Shown here: one piece after another, positions 49,911-58,562 of the stretch
How positions within the stretch are numbered: the stretch's first letter is position 1
Layout: each line of letters starts with the position of its first letter
Assembly (NCBI RefSeq): GCF_024298845.1
Contig: NZ_CP101156.1
Location: forward strand, 1,860,001-1,924,000
Reading direction: 5' to 3'
DNA length: 64,000 nucleotides
DNA from: Natronosalvus amylolyticus
GTDB taxonomy: Archaea; Halobacteriota; Halobacteria; Halobacteriales; Natrialbaceae
Notes under the pieces: model-generated
The model's input: only the letters and a program-made list of their open reading frames with translations
What the model was told of the DNA's origin: nothing
The model's database searches: none
Made by a program: the position numbers and the translations under genes

Positions 49911-50128
49911 ACGGTTTCGAGGACAACCCAACAAATTATCCCTTCATCTCACGAAAGGGAACGTGTGCCACCGGTTATGCGCGTCGGTCGACGGGAACTC
50001 ACCTCGACGGAGATACTCGAGCAACTCGAGGCGGGGAACCGCGTCCTCATCGAGGTATCCCTCCTCGGGAAGACCATCGAAATGGCCGTTCGCAGACACC
50101 AGGAGACCTATTACAGAAAGTCAAGGAG

Positions 50129-50152
50129 AAAGCCCACGACTTGAGTCGTGGG
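50129..50152 (+). other. IS left-end guide and hairpin
   Basis: AAAG is followed by cccacgac-ttga-gtcgtggg, an 8-bp perfect stem with a 4-nt loop. In IS608 the AAAG guide pairs with the TTAC cleavage site to position TnpA; the arrangement here is the same. Confidence 0.85.
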
Positions 50153-50253
50153 ATGAATCCCACAACAGACGACACGAACCACGAGCGATAGCCAGTCCGA
50201 GTCTCCCACGCTCATCCATACCTTTACAAAACAATATTTCGTAAGATCTGGTG

Positions 50254-51591
50254 ATGAAGCGAGCCAACCGCTTCAACGTTCGCCCTCGCTCGGGGAAAGA
50301 GCGTGAGGTGTTCGTTCGCTGGTTGGACGCTTCTGCGAGTCTCTGGAACGAGACCAACTACGCTCGCCGCCAAGCCCTTCTTGAAGACGACGAAAGCATC
50401 TGGGACGCCGACACCGGCAAACTCGAAGGCAAATACAAGGGTGTTCTCAGCAGTTCGGTCGCCCAGCAGATCATCCGCAAGAACTCCGAAGCGTGGCGGT
50501 CGTTCTTCTCCAGCAACGAGAAATACCACGCCGGCAAACTCGACGAGAAGCCGTCTCCACCTGGATACTGGGGTAACGAAGACGATGGACGGGTACTCCG
50601 TACGTACGTTCGCAACGACCAGTACACCATCCAATTCGGGAAATATTCCCGGCTTGAAGTCCCGATCGGCTCCGAACTCAAAAACGAACTTGGGTTGAAT
50701 CGGAACCAACGCCTTCGCGTTGAAGTTGCTGGTGAGCCGAAGTGGCGCGGCGAGCAAGGCCGACTCGAACTCGTGTACGACGAAACCGCAGATACGTTCA
50801 GGGCTTATCAACCAGTCACCGTCGACAGTTCTCGACTGGATTCACCACTGGCTTCGGAAGAAGCCGCTCTCGACGTGGGCGCGAACAATCTCGTCGCTTG
50901 CACGACGACAACCGGTTCTCAATACTTGTACGAAGGACGTGAGTTGTTCGAGCGGTTCCGCGAAACCACCGAACAAATCGCGTACTACCAGTCACTCCTC
51001 GAAGACCAGCGCAAATCCAGCAAGCGCATCGACCGCTTGTACCGTAAGCGCACGAATCGGCGCAAACACGCCCAAAACACCCTCGTCCGCGACCTCGTGG
51101 AACGTCTGTACGACGAGGGCGTGTCGACGCTGTACGTAGGCGACATCAAAGGCGTTCTCTCAACACATTGGTCGCCGGTTATAAACTCGAAGACGCACAA
51201 CTTTTGGGCGTACCGCCGGTTCATCAATCGGCTCGAAGACGTGTGCGAAGAGCACGGTATCAGGGTCGAAGAGGAATCTGAAGCGTGGACGAGTCAGGAG
51301 TGTCCCGACTGTGGCGAGCGCGAAGGGACTATTCGCCACGAGGATTCGCTGGCGTGTCCGTGTGGGTTCGAGGGTCACGCCGACCTTGTCGCATCGGAAT
51401 CGTTCCTGAGACAGCAGAACAACACAGTAGGGTCGATGGCACGGCCCGTGTACCTCAAGTGGAACAAACACAGTTGGCGGGAACATCATAGCCCGCCCTC
51501 CATCGCGGTGGAGGCAACGGCCAACGAGGCGTACACAGACCAAAGTACCGCATCGAGCGGAAATATCGCTCTCGGGGACTCAGACGACTGA
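50254..51591 (+). CDS. tnpB: TnpB RNA-guided nuclease
   Basis: The 445-residue protein, from ATG 50254 (GTG 50251 is alternative), is full length. RuvC-I has Asp 207 in [15 protein letters not shown]. The zinc ribbon has Cys 350, 353, 368 and 370 in TSQECPDCG and ACPCGF. RuvC-III has Asp 377 in [12 protein letters not shown]. At the RuvC-II position, where TnpB normally has Glu (vEDL), this protein reads YVGDIKGV, so the catalytic Glu appears displaced or lost. It is probably bound to an RNA made from the right end of the element. Confidence 0.93.
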
Positions 51592-51659
51592 GACTCCCAC
51601 GAGAGGAATCTCACGACTTCAGTCGTGGGTGGATGTCAATGTGATACCCCGGTGAAACT
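51500..51659 (+). ncRNA. Predicted omega RNA (reRNA) with guide from the IS right flank
   Basis: TnpB systems transcribe a structured RNA from the end of tnpB through the right end, with the guide being the flanking DNA. Here the scaffold would include the hairpin at 51612-51627 and the guide would begin at 51640 with tgtgataccccggtga. The 5' boundary is not defined by sequence alone. This is a prediction by analogy. Confidence 0.45.
51606..51639 (+). other. IS right-end guide, hairpin and cleavage site
   Basis: GAAT (51606-51609) precedes the hairpin cacgac-ttca-gtcgtg (51612-51627) and the element ends with TCAA (51636-51639). Order and sequences equal those of IS608 right ends. Confidence 0.85.
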
Positions 51660-51704
51660 GCTCACCTTCGAGGACGAGAAGGACTTTCGGGACTGCCTCG
51701 AGCG

Positions 51705-53183
51705 CTATCGCCTCGCTCGCGCGCCGGATGAAAAAGACGAACTCGAAGAACCCGAAACGGCCTGAAGACTGAGAGGTAGCCAACGATGGCGCTCGAGGGA
51801 GCCTGTCTGTGGTGTCGTTCCGTAGTGATCAGCCAGAACATCACCCTGAGTGGCGCCCGATGATGTTGTCCCTTCTATCGACGGATCCGGTGGCTCGTCA
51901 TCGGATATCTGGGCCTCGAGGAATCCGACACGAACGACCACGTCTCGGTCCAGTTGTTCGGTCAGGTGGTCGTCGAATTGTTGGGCAAGGTCGGGTGGGG
52001 CCTCCATATGACGTGGAATGGCGATGAGAACGTTGACCTGTGGCTCGTTTCCGTGGAGGATATCGGCTGGCTCGTATTCGGTGGTCACCGAGATGAGTTC
52101 GACGCCCTCGATGTCCGCCTCATCGAAGTGCTGCTGGAGTTCGTCCTGGGCCTCGCTTTTGAACGCATTGGTCTGGTACGTTGCCAGGGTGACGGCACCG
52201 AGTGCTACCGAGAGGACGACGATAGCGATAACCAGGACGACAACGCGGGACACAACCGCCGATCGGACTCCCTCGGTTGTCCCCGGATCGAGAGGCTTGA
52301 ATCCGGCTAGATAGAAGAGGACCAGCGCCGAGACGTTGATTGCGAGGAGGTTGACGACGACGAGAACAGCGGCGGCAATAGCGACCTCCGGTAATCCGAA
52401 GGCGATACCCAGCCCCGACGTTGCAGCCGGAGGAATGAGCGCAACCGCGATAGCCACGCCCACGAGTGCCGATCCCGCACCTCGGATTATGCTGATCACC
52501 CCGGCGAGTCCCGATCCGAGGGCGAGAAAGAGTGACAGAAAGTTTGGACTCGTTCGCTCGGCTATCTGTGGAATCGTTCGGATATCGAGTTCTGGTGGGA
52601 TGAGAATCGTGTGCTGAATCACCAATCCCATTATCGCGGCAGTCACGATCGCGGCCAACAAACCAACGACCTGTAGCGTGATCCCTCTGGAAGCCATGGC
52701 CTGGTCGTCCAGTATCGTCCCGACACTCGCCGAGATGGCAGGTCCCATCAGCGGTGCGACGACCATTGCGCCAATGATTGTCGCCGCGGAATCGAGAAGC
52801 AACCCTGTCGTCGCAATGATTGTACTCAGGACCAAGAACGCGAAGAACGTAGAGTTGGCCGGTGCGAGGTCCGCTGCCCTGGCGTGTAACTCCTCACGTG
52901 AGATACGTAATCCGGGGAATCGTTCGATCAGGGCGGACAACCGCTCCGAGACGACCGTCTCGGTCGGGAGTATAATTGTATAGGCGTCCGACCGAACACC
53001 AGCATCGGTCAAGCGCTCCAGAATCGTTTCGACGCCGCTCGGCGGAACCGGGAACTGGACCATCGCCTCGAAGTCTCCCCGTCCGACCTCCTCGAAAACC
53101 GCATAGTCGATTCCCTGTTCATCGAGGGCAGTGAGGGCACTGTCTTTTGATCCCTCCGGAATGAGTATCTGTACCAATCGCAT
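51705..53183 (-). CDS. DUF389 / TIGR00341 family membrane protein
   Basis: The 492-residue protein has an N-terminal soluble domain (MRLVQILIPEGSKDSALTAL), followed by about seven hydrophobic helices with the family motifs SAATIIGAMVVAPLMGPAIS and VGVAIAVALIPPAATSGLGI. A C-terminal soluble domain has a Ser-rich tail. The role is unknown, though the family is widespread in archaea and cyanobacteria. The start at 53183 is the second Met of the frame. Its 3' end overlaps the relic 3' fragment of the IS-split gene antisense by 61 bp. Confidence 0.88.
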   Translation of the reverse strand: MRLVQILIPEGSKDSALTALDEQGIDYAVFEEVGRGDFEAMVQFPVPPSGVETILERLTDAGVRSDAYTIILPTETVVSERLSALIERFPGLRISREELHARAADLAPANSTFFAFLVLSTIIATTGLLLDSAATIIGAMVVAPLMGPAISASVGTILDDQAMASRGITLQVVGLLAAIVTAAIMGLVIQHTILIPPELDIRTIPQIAERTSPNFLSLFLALGSGLAGVISIIRGAGSALVGVAIAVALIPPAATSGLGIAFGLPEVAIAAAVLVVVNLLAINVSALVLFYLAGFKPLDPGTTEGVRSAVVSRVVVLVIAIVVLSVALGAVTLATYQTNAFKSEAQDELQQHFDEADIEGVELISVTTEYEPADILHGNEPQVNVLIAIPRHMEAPPDLAQQFDDHLTEQLDRDVVVRVGFLEAQISDDEPPDPSIEGTTSSGATQGDVLADHYGTTPQTGSLERHRWLPLSLQAVSGSSSSSFSSGARARR

Positions 53184-53383: not shown

Positions 53384-54286
53384 CTACTCGATCTCGAGCA
53401 GCCCGTACATGAAGCCAGCGTGCGGTGAGCAGTAGTAGGGCTGTTCGCCGGCGTCCGCTGCCTCCCACTCGAACGTATCGCCTTCGCTCGAGATGGTCGA
53501 ATCGAACGTCTCCCCGCCGCCACGGCGGGTGTCGATATCGTCCGTCGAGGTGACGGTGTGGAAGACGCCGTCGGTGTTGGTCCACCGAATCGTCGCACCG
53601 ACGTCGACGCGGACGTGGTGTGGCTCGAACAGGAAGTTCGGTTCGTTGGTGCCGCCCTCGCCGGCTCGAGTCTCGATTTCGACGATGTCCTTCCCGGTTG
53701 CGTCGACCGGGTCATCGAAGGTGTAAAACTCGGCTTCCGCCTCGTCATCACCGGTTTCGTCGTCAGCATCGGCATCACCGTCGGTATCCTCGTCACCGTC
53801 AGCATCAGCATCACCATCACCATCCTCTTCTGCCAGTTCGTCGTCGGCAACGTCGCCGACGAGGAGATCGGCGACCATTCCACTGCTCTCGTGCGGTTCG
53901 CAGACGTAGTGGTAGTGACCCTCGACCTCGAACGTGAACTCGTACTCGAATCCTTCGTCTTCGATTTCCTGCTGGCCGGCCCAGGTCGAGCCAGCCGGGA
54001 TTTCGGTCGGGACGACGTTGTGGGTATCCGATTCCCAGAGCCAGCGAACGGTGTCGCCGGGTTCGACCTCGAGTGGTTCGGCCGTTCCGGGGGTGAAGAC
54101 GAACTCGTCGTCGGGCCCAACGAGCACCTCGTGGACCTCGTCGCCCTCGTCAGAGGCTCCGCTGTCGGTAGCCCCAGCAGCGTCATCTTCGGCTGCCGGT
54201 GCGAGACAACCCGCGAGGGTGGCGACGCCGAGCCCACCCGATAGCGCGATGAACCGGCGACGCGTCGCCGATTTCGTCCGGGCCAT
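53384..54286 (-). CDS. Two-domain blue-copper (halocyanin-like) lipoprotein
   Basis: The 300-residue Tat lipoprotein (RRRFIALSGGLGVATLAGC, lipobox Cys 27) contains two cupredoxin domains. Domain 1 has ligands His 89, Cys 129, His 132 and Met 137 (DTHNVV; YVCEPHESSGM). Domain 2 has His 243, Cys 286, His 289 and Met 293 (VFHTVTS; YYCSPHAGFM). They are joined by an acidic Asp/Ala/Gly-rich linker (about 150-185). Each domain can hold one type I copper and carry electrons outside the membrane. It is translationally coupled to the upstream gene (TGATG overlap). Confidence 0.92.
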   Translation of the reverse strand: MARTKSATRRRFIALSGGLGVATLAGCLAPAAEDDAAGATDSGASDEGDEVHEVLVGPDDEFVFTPGTAEPLEVEPGDTVRWLWESDTHNVVPTEIPAGSTWAGQQEIEDEGFEYEFTFEVEGHYHYVCEPHESSGMVADLLVGDVADDELAEEDGDGDADADGDEDTDGDADADDETGDDEAEAEFYTFDDPVDATGKDIVEIETRAGEGGTNEPNFLFEPHHVRVDVGATIRWTNTDGVFHTVTSTDDIDTRRGGGETFDSTISSEGDTFEWEAADAGEQPYYCSPHAGFMYGLLEIE

Positions 54287-55416
54287 CAGTCGTCCGTCGG
54301 CGTCGGCATGAAGTTGCGGTCGACACCGATATCCACGTCACCCCACGGCATCTCGAGGTCGCGGACGGCGTGGTGAACGAGCCAGTAGCCCTGGTCGTCC
54401 ACGGTGCTCCCACCGTGACCCGCATCCCAGCTGTCTGCCTCCGACTTGTGGAAGTGCGAGAAGTCATCCGGGTTCGGATTGTCGTCGTTGGTGAAGTTCC
54501 CGGCCTGTCCTATCCCGAAGTAGATCAGGTCGTTGGCTTCCTCCGGGTTGGGGTCGTCGAAGTGGAGGAAGACGATCGTGTCGCTCTCGTTTTCGGTCGG
54601 TGGCTCCCACCAGACGTGAGCAGGCGTGTACGCACGCATCTCGCCGTCGATCTCGCGCTGGTCGTCGTTGGTCCAGTTGTCCGCGAACAACTCGAGGAGC
54701 GCGTCTCGATCCGTATCCGAGAGACTGCCTTCACTGCCGACCTCGAATGTACCCGTGCCTTCACTTCCTTCCTCCGGCGGCGTCGGCATGAAGCCGTAGT
54801 CGACCCCTACCTCAACCTCGCCCCAGGGCATCTCGAAGTCGTCGACCGCGATGTGGGTCAACCAGTAGCCTTCGTCGTCGACAGAGTCGCCGCCGTGACC
54901 GGCTTCCCAGCCCTCAGCGTCGCGTTTGTGAAAGTGAGTGAACTCTTCGTCCGGTTGGCTCTCTTCCGTGAAGACGCCTTTTTTCCCGATGACGATGTAG
55001 CGGAGATTCTCTGCATCCTCCGGGTTCGGATTATCGAGATGGAGCGCGATGAACGTCTCTTCGCTCACCCACTTCCAGACGTGCGCTGGTGTGTAGCTAC
55101 CGCGTTCGCCGTCGATCTCGAGTTGGTCGTCGTTGAATAGCTGATCGTCGAACAGGTCGACGAGTTGCTGGATGGTGGGTTGCTCCGCATCGCCATCGTC
55201 TTGTTCCTGGTCGTCATCCTCATCTCCCTGTTCATCGTCGTGGTCGTCGTCCATTTCATCGGTATCGTCCCCCATCTCGTCGGCATCGTCGTCGCCGGAC
55301 GGTTCGTTTTCAGCATCGTCGCCACCGAGACAGCCGGCTACGGCGAGGGCACCGCTCGCACCGAGAACCTGCAGCAGTCGTCGTCGCTTCATTCGCGAGG
55401 GAATAGTGTTCGGCAT
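54286..55416 (-). CDS. Tat lipoprotein with tandem His-rich domains
   Basis: The 376-residue protein has a Tat signal (MKRRRLLQVLGASGALAVAG) with lipobox Cys 29 and an about 50-residue acidic linker. Two about 140-residue copies of one domain follow, 155-160 residues apart. Both copies share TPAHVW, DxPNPE, HFHK, AGHGG, VDD.GYWL.H.AV, MPWG.V and GVD..FMPTP. Invariant His are 112/267, 161/321, 163/323, 174/334 and 188/348, suggesting a metal or redox site. I do not recognise the family. The start is 55416, with the alternative Met at 55392 just before the twin Arg. The operon with the copper protein suggests a joint role. Confidence 0.85.
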   Translation of the reverse strand: MPNTIPSRMKRRRLLQVLGASGALAVAGCLGGDDAENEPSGDDDADEMGDDTDEMDDDHDDEQGDEDDDQEQDDGDAEQPTIQQLVDLFDDQLFNDDQLEIDGERGSYTPAHVWKWVSEETFIALHLDNPNPEDAENLRYIVIGKKGVFTEESQPDEEFTHFHKRDAEGWEAGHGGDSVDDEGYWLTHIAVDDFEMPWGEVEVGVDYGFMPTPPEEGSEGTGTFEVGSEGSLSDTDRDALLELFADNWTNDDQREIDGEMRAYTPAHVWWEPPTENESDTIVFLHFDDPNPEEANDLIYFGIGQAGNFTNDDNPNPDDFSHFHKSEADSWDAGHGGSTVDDQGYWLVHHAVRDLEMPWGDVDIGVDRNFMPTPTDD

Positions 55417-55628
55417 ACAGACGGACAGTCGACCCCATCAAGGATCACCGTATGTCGGTTGTGTGCCGGGTGTGAACGACAGGAGGTGGTATTAATACGG
55501 CAGGGAGATGGTCTCGACACGAGCGCGTGCTGTCTGCTCGAGAGCCGAAGATGAATCTGCCATCATCGCTAGCCGAGCCCTCGAGACTGGCTACCGTCGT
55601 GGCAGCGTTGAATGCGCGGAGATGAGGT

Positions 55629-58562
55629 TCAGCTTTCGCTTTCGTTTGACGGTTCGTCCGCGCCATTCTGGTTAGCCCCGTTGCCGATATCCCCGTTACC
55701 GTCGTCGCTACCGGCCTCATTTCCGGTTGTCTCGGACTCCTCCCCGTCATCTACATCGTCGGTATCGTTCGACTGTGGCTCGTCATCAGTGTCATCTGTT
55801 TCCGTGTCGCCGTCGGTATCATCGGTATCCTCGAGCCCGTTGCTATCACCCTCATCGTCGTCCCCATCTCCATTTTCGTCAGCAGTCGATTCGTCATCCG
55901 CCTCGCCTTCACCGGTTTCCTCCTCGCCGGTACCGTCATCGTCCTCCGTAGCTGTCTCGGCGTACGACGCTGCAGGCTGGGTCGACACCGTCACCGGCTC
56001 CTGGTCGCCGAACCCGGAGAGGTCGACCGTCCACTCGAGACGCTCATCGTCCGTCGCCGGCGTCCAGGTCACGGTGAACGTTCCGGACCCTGCCTCGAGT
56101 TGACCGGGCGGCGCGTCGTTTGTCGTTCCCTCCGTGAACGAACTACCAACGGTCAGCGCGACGTCGTTCGGGTTCTCGTAGCCGAAGGTCACCGCGTAGC
56201 CGTCCTCGGTGGACGTCACCTCCTGCACCTCGAGCGTCGGTGGCGTTGGCTGTATCGCCTCGCTACAGTCGTGGGGGTTGGCGTGGGTCGTTTCGGGACC
56301 GACGGCACTCGGATCACCGATTCCCGTGATGGCCGTCCCGAGTTCGCCGTAGTCCCTGACGGTGACGGTCGCACTCGAGTCGTCGCCGCTGACACCGCCG
56401 TTCTCCCCGACTTCGAACACGATGGTTCCAGAAAAGGGAGCAGGGACGTGGTCGCCGATCGTGATGAAATCCTCGCCGGACGTGGTGCCGACGCCGTGAT
56501 CGGTGTTGAACACCGTGTGTGCCATGATCGTGTCTCCGTCTTCGAAATTTCCCGATACCTCGACGCGCGAACAGTCGATGAACGAGACCTCGAGGTCGGG
56601 TGCTTCGTCCGCGTCATCGTCATCCTCGCTTTCCTCATCATCATCGTCATCTTCGTCATCATCAGTATCTTCGTCCGCAGTTTCGTCGACGCCGAACACC
56701 TCGACCGTCCGTTCGTCGCGTTCGCCGTCAGCCTCGACCACGACCGAGAACGAAACGTCGCGCCTGACGGGGTAGGTCTCGTAGCCCAGGGTGAGCGAGT
56801 CACTCTCCCCGCCATCCACCGTCACCGATTCGGACGCCACGCGGTCCCCGCCGACTAGCAACGACACGGCTTCGGTTACCGTCGCCTCCCCGGAATTCCG
56901 CAGTTCGACGTCGAGCTCGAGCCACTCGCCGCCGGTAACGGGGTCGTTCACCTCGAGAATCCGTGGCACCAGCGAGGGAAGTTCTTCGGCGAAGACGCGA
57001 ACCCGTTTCCGGTCACAGGCACCCTCAGTTTCGACGCTGACGGGGAATTCGACGTTCTTCCGCACGGGATAGGTGGGATAGCTCATCTCGAGGGTCGTCC
57101 GCTCACCCGGCTCGAGCGAGACGTCTTCGGCCCCGACGCGGTCACCGGCGACGAGGTACACCGGCTGGCTCACCGCGTCAGAGCCGGTGTTTTCGATTTC
57201 GACGGTGACCGAAAGCATCTCGCCCGCCAGCACCGGTGCGTTGGTCTCGAGGATGCTGATTTCGAGGTCGCTCACGCCGTCAGCGAACACCGAGACCGTT
57301 CGGTGTGCGGTGTCGTCACCGGTTTCGACCCGGACGGGGAACTCGACGTCGGTCCGGACTGGATAGGTCTCGTAACCGAGCGTGATCGAGTCCGTCGTGT
57401 CGTCCTCGAGCGTAACCGACCGGGTATCGACGATTTCGTTGCCCACGACAAGCGAGACGTCTCGCGTTGCGGTTTCGGAACCCGTGTTCTCGAGGCCGAC
57501 GGTCAGTTCGAGTCGGTCGCCCGCCCCGACGGGCGCGTTCGTCTCTCGAATCGAGGCCTCCACCGGGCCGCCGCCGGGATCGGCCACCGTCCAGAGGTCC
57601 ACCCGGCGAACGGTCCCATCGGTCGCGATCACCCAGGCGTGAATCGGACAGCGGTGACAGAGATCCGACCCTGCCACCTCGAGACTCGCCGTGTCCTGGC
57701 CGCCCGACAGCGAGGAGACCCCGAGAATGCGGTCGGCGTGACCCAGCCACCAGACGACCCGGTCGAGGGCGACGTCGCTCGCGCCGACGCTCGCCTCGAG
57801 TTCGAGGTCGACCGTAGCTTCGCCAACCTCGAGCGGCCCCGGTGACGGTTCGACGTGGTCGACCCGTGGTCCACCGTGGGCACGCGAGTCGACCTCGACC
57901 GTCCAGCCAGCAGTTCGGTTGGCGGTTTCGCCAGCGACAGCGGCTCTGACGCGGTGCGTCCCGGACTCGTCGAATGTGTATAACCAGTAGTCCCGGCCCG
58001 TCCACGCGAAATACTCGGCGTTCCAGGGCCCCATCGACCACCCCGACCAGTCCCCCTCGAGATACCAGTTCGTGACGCCGCCGTAGCCGTCGGTCGTCTC
58101 CGGTTCGGCCTCGAACAGCACGGTCGTCCCCGGCCGAACCGCCACCGCCGGATCCGGGCGAACGCGGTCGGCGGGAAGGTCGTCGATACCGGTCACCGAG
58201 ACGCTCCGTGCGACGCTTTCTTCTCCCGCCGTCACGCGTACGGGAAACGTCACGTCCTGTCGGACGGGATAGGTCAGGTGACTGAACTCGAGGTCGCGGC
58301 TCTCGCCGGCCGCGAGCGTGAACGACCAGCGCCCGCCCACTGATTCGTCGCCGATGAACAACGCTGCCGTGACCTCGAGAGTCTCGTCGGTTGTGTTCGT
58401 TACTGTCGCCATGACGTCGAGGTACTCTCCAGCCTCAACCGGGTCGTTGGCCTCGAGAATTTGCACTGAGAGTGCTTCGGCCGTGGCCGTCGTTCCACCA
58501 GTGACTGACACCATCGCACCGACACCGGTTCCGAGCCCCACCAGATATGCTCTCCGGCGCAT
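55629..58562 (-). CDS. Large secreted surface protein with CARDB-like repeats
   Basis: The 977-residue protein begins with a Tat-like signal (MRRRAYLVGLGTGVGAMVSV). Four beta-sandwich repeats of about 90 residues lie at about 32-125, 335-425, 428-518 and 520-612. Each starts with ILExNxPVxAGExL and contains a TYPVRxDVxF motif. A different, larger domain with Trp-rich and Cys-containing segments sits between the first and second. After an acidic linker, a further domain (CSRVEVSGNFEDGDTIMAHT) precedes a long acidic tail. No C-terminal anchor is visible, so it is secreted or bound non-covalently. Adhesion or ligand binding is typical of CARDB proteins. Confidence 0.86.
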   Translation of the reverse strand: MRRRAYLVGLGTGVGAMVSVTGGTTATAEALSVQILEANDPVEAGEYLDVMATVTNTTDETLEVTAALFIGDESVGGRWSFTLAAGESRDLEFSHLTYPVRQDVTFPVRVTAGEESVARSVSVTGIDDLPADRVRPDPAVAVRPGTTVLFEAEPETTDGYGGVTNWYLEGDWSGWSMGPWNAEYFAWTGRDYWLYTFDESGTHRVRAAVAGETANRTAGWTVEVDSRAHGGPRVDHVEPSPGPLEVGEATVDLELEASVGASDVALDRVVWWLGHADRILGVSSLSGGQDTASLEVAGSDLCHRCPIHAWVIATDGTVRRVDLWTVADPGGGPVEASIRETNAPVGAGDRLELTVGLENTGSETATRDVSLVVGNEIVDTRSVTLEDDTTDSITLGYETYPVRTDVEFPVRVETGDDTAHRTVSVFADGVSDLEISILETNAPVLAGEMLSVTVEIENTGSDAVSQPVYLVAGDRVGAEDVSLEPGERTTLEMSYPTYPVRKNVEFPVSVETEGACDRKRVRVFAEELPSLVPRILEVNDPVTGGEWLELDVELRNSGEATVTEAVSLLVGGDRVASESVTVDGGESDSLTLGYETYPVRRDVSFSVVVEADGERDERTVEVFGVDETADEDTDDDEDDDDDEESEDDDDADEAPDLEVSFIDCSRVEVSGNFEDGDTIMAHTVFNTDHGVGTTSGEDFITIGDHVPAPFSGTIVFEVGENGGVSGDDSSATVTVRDYGELGTAITGIGDPSAVGPETTHANPHDCSEAIQPTPPTLEVQEVTSTEDGYAVTFGYENPNDVALTVGSSFTEGTTNDAPPGQLEAGSGTFTVTWTPATDDERLEWTVDLSGFGDQEPVTVSTQPAASYAETATEDDDGTGEEETGEGEADDESTADENGDGDDDEGDSNGLEDTDDTDGDTETDDTDDEPQSNDTDDVDDGEESETTGNEAGSDDGNGDIGNGANQNGADEPSNESES

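Follow-up and report, generated by a model that had tools for sequence, protein, structure and literature searches.

Within a 64,000-nucleotide stretch of contig NZ_CP101156.1 of Natronosalvus amylolyticus, hereafter the window, we identified two overlapping genes whose coupling is strongly supported and which encode a predicted lipoprotein with two conserved-histidine domains (gene 1) and a halocyanin-like blue copper lipoprotein (gene 2). With a probability of about 0.48, the pair would constitute an extracytoplasmic, membrane-anchored metal-redox operon in which the gene 1 metalloprotein trades electrons with a halocyanin of its own. The features of the locus are the following (window coordinates).

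54286..55416, minus strand: gene 1, conserved-His lipoprotein of 376 aa (open reading frame; kept in 18 Natrialbaceae genomes)
54769..55170, minus strand: His domain 1, with H112, H126, H161, H163, H174, H188 and M210 (profile match at 1914769-1915170 in G000; invariant residues)
54292..54705, minus strand: His domain 2, with H267, H285, H321, H323, H334 and H348 (profile match at 1914292-1914705 in G000; alignment)
53384..54286, minus strand: gene 2, two-domain blue copper (halocyanin-like) lipoprotein of 300 aa (PF00127 match)
53858..54109, minus strand: copper domain 1, pseudoazurin/plastocyanin-like, predicted ligands H89, C129, H132 and M137
53387..53689, minus strand: copper domain 2, the portion shared by all 18 genomes, predicted ligands H243, C286, H289 and M293
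54284..54288, minus strand: TGATG stop/start overlap that couples genes 1 and 2 (from the sequence)
55490..55497, no strand assigned: TATTAATA, possible TATA element of archaeal type, about 75 nt before gene 1

The one-base overlap (TGATG) of the two genes is present on the minus strand where the preliminary description had placed it. An alternative ATG located 8 codons downstream of the annotated beginning of gene 1 may be its true start. The sequence TATTAATA has a single exact match in the whole 64-kb window, compared with 0.04 expected, and is a possible promoter element of gene 1. The Tat lipoprotein signals previously noted on both proteins are recognizable by eye as motifs: at each N-terminus, RRR is followed by a hydrophobic segment, an AGC lipobox and an acidic linker, and the RRR/lipobox motif is also kept in relatives of the pair. 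The NCBIfam TAT model scores below its cut-off on the copper protein (E = 0.39). Both proteins would accordingly be candidates for Tat export and lipidation. The acidic linkers were likewise confirmed (D+E = 52% and 48% in two of them). Compared with the nearest relative, the gene pair is subject to purifying selection (dN/dS of 0.22 and 0.13).

Full-length gene 1 was detected in 14 of the 391 genomes of the class, all of them Natrialbaceae, and intact gene 1 in 18 of 125 Natrialbaceae genomes; among the sampled haloarchaea, relatives of gene 1 were found only in this family, as judged from the named records. In all 18 genomes (18/18), the copper gene is the next gene behind the His gene on the same strand, with a gap of -1 to +13 nt (the spacing in L072 was taken from its junction sequence). 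A reverse search with the C-terminal copper domain in 71 genomes of the family recovered an intact domain in 8 of the 8 genomes with the His protein and in 0 of the 63 without it, a perfect split with a chance probability of 1/C(71,8) = 9 × 10−11, shared ancestry left aside. The pair decays in some lineages: G312 (L048/L123) has a broken His gene, with remnants of both genes side by side, and a lone 54-residue fragment of the copper domain occurs in G115 (L122), which is among the 63 genomes lacking the His protein. The trees of the two proteins are broadly similar in shape and have their main groupings in common. From the adjacency, the reverse search, the remnants in G312 and the shared tree groupings, it follows that the pair is kept and lost as a unit; the claim that the two genes are conserved together is therefore upheld, and their separation in most genomes, raised in the preliminary description as the contrary outcome, is refuted. 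Searches for the pair in viral, phage and plasmid sequences returned only the copy on a plasmid of Natronorubrum aibiense.

Gene 2 matches PF00127 in two stretches (E = 4.5 × 10−24; 85.2 bits vs. a gathering score of 21.2), and among the NCBIfam models it scores highest with the halocyanin domain TIGR03102, reaching 88.2 bits under a cut-off of 93.8, because of which we file the protein as halocyanin-like. Its PDB matches are pseudoazurin and plastocyanin, the pseudoazurins being the closest solved relatives. In both domains, the His-Cys-His-Met set of type 1 copper ligands is complete, as could be expected from the two type I copper sites previously predicted for this protein. The tandem arrangement itself, also part of that prediction, holds for the window protein but is not a fixed feature: of the proteins from the 18 genomes, twelve contain two copper domains, five contain a single one, and one, from the draft genome L072, has a reading frame that appears to be shifted between its two domains. 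Furthermore, copper domain 1 of the Natronosalvus-type genomes is unlike its counterpart in the remaining two-domain relatives. Because the number of domains varies and domain 1 differs among the relatives, the system does not depend on having two copper sites. With the halocyanin and plastocyanin-azurin family (PF00127, TIGR03102), gene 2 shares the cupredoxin domains, the His-Cys-His-Met ligands, a Tat-like lipoprotein signal and the haloarchaeal host, whereas the two tandem domains on an acidic linker, the TIGR03102 score just below the cut-off and the specific partner gene set it apart. In Natronolimnohabitans sp. A-GB9 (L075, L007), the copper protein has one domain and the His protein likewise has one, which starts out like repeat 1 and goes on like repeat 2, as would result from recombination between the repeats.

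The gene 1 protein was previously described as two tandem domains with clustered His. The two copies are 54% identical to each other over 138 aa (E = 2 × 10−52), in agreement with the first part of this description, and the duplication predates most of the divergence of the family. The second part is accurate only in a restricted sense, given that the protein as a whole is not rich in His (14 among 376 aa), but 12 of these 14 form two sets of six invariant His. Searches of Pfam, NCBIfam and PDB with the single sequence, and of Pfam and PDB with the alignment or the profile, yielded no match. The AlphaFold model of the two-domain protein was useless (pLDDT 43), whereas a single His domain was predicted to be beta-rich (pLDDT 73, pTM 0.69); the best Foldseek hit of this single-domain model in PDB had E = 0.86. 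Neither sequence nor structure searches identified a relative with a known metal or activity.

To characterize conservation within the His domain, we aligned 38 copies, namely both repeats from 17 genomes, the single copy from one more genome and three relatives from mcrA-bearing archaea. This alignment contains 23 invariant columns, six of them occupied by His, a significant over-representation (p = 6 × 10−4). The invariant His lie in PxH, at the LH/IH position, in HFH, in GHG and in WxxH, and are accompanied by one Met in FMPT; invariant residues also include G, W, D, F, P and T. Outside the haloarchaea, the domain occurs in five archaeal genomes that bear mcrA, the gene for methyl-coenzyme M reductase, in two of which the copies are shortened. 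The proteins from these archaea (L076, L079, L080 and L117, the L117 copy being truncated) share with gene 1 the same domain with its six His and the FMPTP motif, at about 40% identity, and are encoded close to the same kind of winged-helix gene. These uncharacterized proteins differ from gene 1 in having a single domain and in that an N-terminal membrane segment and a coiled coil replace the lipobox, the complete copies consisting of one His domain on this membrane anchor and coiled coil. No copper-protein match was found in the flanks taken around them, hence the His domain can work without a copper partner. One mcrA-bearing archaeon encodes, close to a shortened His-domain gene, a lipoprotein of the cytochrome P460 type that contains one CxxCH (PF16694, 8 × 10−13; L077:8100-8609).

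A more distant relative of the His domain is the undescribed L083/L084 family of 192-199 aa proteins (hhalign probability 95%, E = 2 × 10−8), in which most of the invariant-His positions recur: PGH, RHY (RHY/KHY), VHYH, WLKH and PGxDYxFIP are aligned, whereas the GHGG motif is missing, the identity is about 24%, and the family is uncharacterized. In G771, a gene of this type adjoins genes for a DUF3179 protein and a FAD-disulfide reductase. In other haloarchaeal families, the His protein had only weak matches, either short and below significance or within the acidic linker region. Six His per domain that are invariant down to distant archaeal relatives make metal binding by the His protein more likely.

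Under the preferred reading, the gene 1 lipoprotein would comprise two beta-rich domains, each with a predicted metal site formed by six invariant His and one Met and occupied most likely by copper or iron; the halocyanin-type gene 2 protein would take electrons from this site, or give electrons to it, and would link it to the respiratory chain. We infer, as did the preliminary description, an enzyme with its own electron carrier. Halocyanin has been reported as the one-electron carrier of haloarchaea that replaces cytochrome c, and haloarchaeal electron flow without an equivalent of complex III, notably in Natrialbales, has been called unresolved (PMC8305020). The pair resembles the fusions of halocyanin with the cbaD subunit of a terminal oxidase (PMC8305020) in that a halocyanin is dedicated to one partner, but differs from them in that this partner is an undescribed lipoprotein rather than an oxidase subunit. 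The constant co-inheritance of this halocyanin with one specific, undescribed and probably metal-binding lipoprotein singles out a concrete candidate partner. The His domain represents a family absent from the databases searched (Pfam, NCBIfam, PDB); its His signature is clear, and it has relatives among the mcrA-bearing archaea. In Natrialbaceae, the joint retention and loss of the two genes suggests a so far unexplored redox pair at the cell surface that depends on metal.

The main rival explanation, which we consider rather unlikely, is copper handling, whereby the His protein would bind copper at the surface as a chaperone or store, either loading the halocyanin or shielding the cell from copper, and would catalyze nothing. 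In favor of this, each domain offers six His and one Met, residues well suited to coordinate copper, gene 2 in turn encodes a copper protein, and obligate pairing fits a dedicated metallochaperone. However, the putative ligands are embedded in a conserved fold whose invariant residues also include G, W, D, F, P and T, whereas typical His-rich copper binders are flexible; haloarchaea produce most of their halocyanins with no partner of this kind, and no copper ATPase or CopZ-type gene was recognized beside the pair in the neighborhoods examined. Quite improbable, in our estimate, is a structural or ligand-binding role of the His domain, in a sensor or in adhesion, with the halocyanin being a general carrier that merely shares the operon. 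The lack of a match to a known enzyme fold, the beta-rich predicted domain and the winged-helix regulator that is often located upstream of the pair are compatible with such a role, and all six His might be structural; nevertheless, the reciprocal presence and joint decay of the two genes are hard to obtain by chance sharing of an operon, and the invariance is concentrated on His.

In several Natrialbaceae, the pair is surrounded by genes for redoxin, DsrE, an HxlR-type regulator, thioredoxin or glutaredoxin, a FAD-disulfide reductase, a DUF3179 protein and a small Cys-pair membrane protein. Winged-helix and HxlR-type regulators, DsrE, the small Cys-pair membrane protein, the FAD-disulfide reductase and DUF3179 are common to these loci and to those of the mcrA-bearing archaea that contain the His domain or its distant relative, although the similarity between the small Cys-pair membrane proteins of the two archaeal lineages is weak (E = 0.009). 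Redoxin-type neighbors are inconstant, with redoxin near the pair in 3 of the 18 haloarchaeal loci, and several have been lost from the window genome: in the window the redoxin and HxlR genes of the nearest relative, L033, are missing, a DUF389 gene being present in their place. As the weakest step of the argument, these neighbors loosely point to thiol/sulfur redox, and not to denitrification, as the area in which the substrate or stress would lie. An extended version of the preferred reading, which we regard as unlikely, takes the six-His domain for a new metalloenzyme fold distributed from mcrA-bearing archaea to haloarchaea, which would have gained a dedicated blue copper partner in Natrialbaceae and would function as an undescribed surface sulfur/thiol oxidoreductase.

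That the pair is a denitrification accessory, donating electrons to nitrous oxide or nitrite reductase, appears highly improbable. The case looks strong in N. aibiense, where the pair is located about 140 bp from nosL of a nosLYFD-nosZ cluster, and a halocyanin has been named as a suspected electron donor in Haloferax denitrification (PMC7754194). Across 125 genomes, however, the association failed: nosZ was present in 9 of the 18 genomes with the pair and in 31 of the 107 without it (p = 0.10), nirK in 8 of the 18 and in 64 of the 107, respectively (p = 0.30), neither difference being significant, and of the 9 genomes having both nosZ and the pair, only one has them near each other, with nosZ on a different contig in the other 8. 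The preliminary description was correct that no known partner (oxidase, nitrite or nitrous-oxide reductase) is encoded near the pair in the window, and this observation extends to the whole window genome for nosZ and nirK, neither of which had a match anywhere at the threshold used. Because there is no significant co-occurrence with nosZ or nirK, and neither was found in the window genome, the proximity of a nos cluster to the pair in N. aibiense is probably a local feature. On the plasmid of this species (NZ_CP045490.1; L071/L121), a redox island of about 25 kb comprises FixH, TauE/SafE, Rrf2, thioredoxin, redoxin, FAD-disulfide reductase, DsrE, DUF3179, the pair and a complete nos cluster.

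Two further sets of neighbors were set aside. A Tat beta-propeller gene, located upstream of the pair in three relatives, was rejected as a third component, given its presence in 3 of the 18 genomes with the pair vs. 32 of the 107 without it; the protein (L071:5259-6485), with orthologs in 35 of the 125 Natrialbaceae genomes, has a Cys-containing C-terminal tail, FCPDDNCYCG, and is weakly similar to NF052460 (lactonase-type nitrous-oxide reductase), with E = 3 × 10−4, far under the cut-off. The genes for aIF-1A, CrtI and a CxxC protein, found downstream of the pair in many relatives, were judged to reflect a fixed chromosomal location and not function. At 49965-51765 of the window, a TnpB-type element of the IS605 family (about 50115-51639) splits, right after TTAC, a conserved gene of about 92 aa (c5) that is intact in L033 and in relatives is often located upstream of the pair. 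Positions 55629-58562 of the window, immediately upstream of the pair and on its strand, encode a large CARDB-repeat protein that is secreted and ends in a long acidic C-terminus; it is kept in L033.
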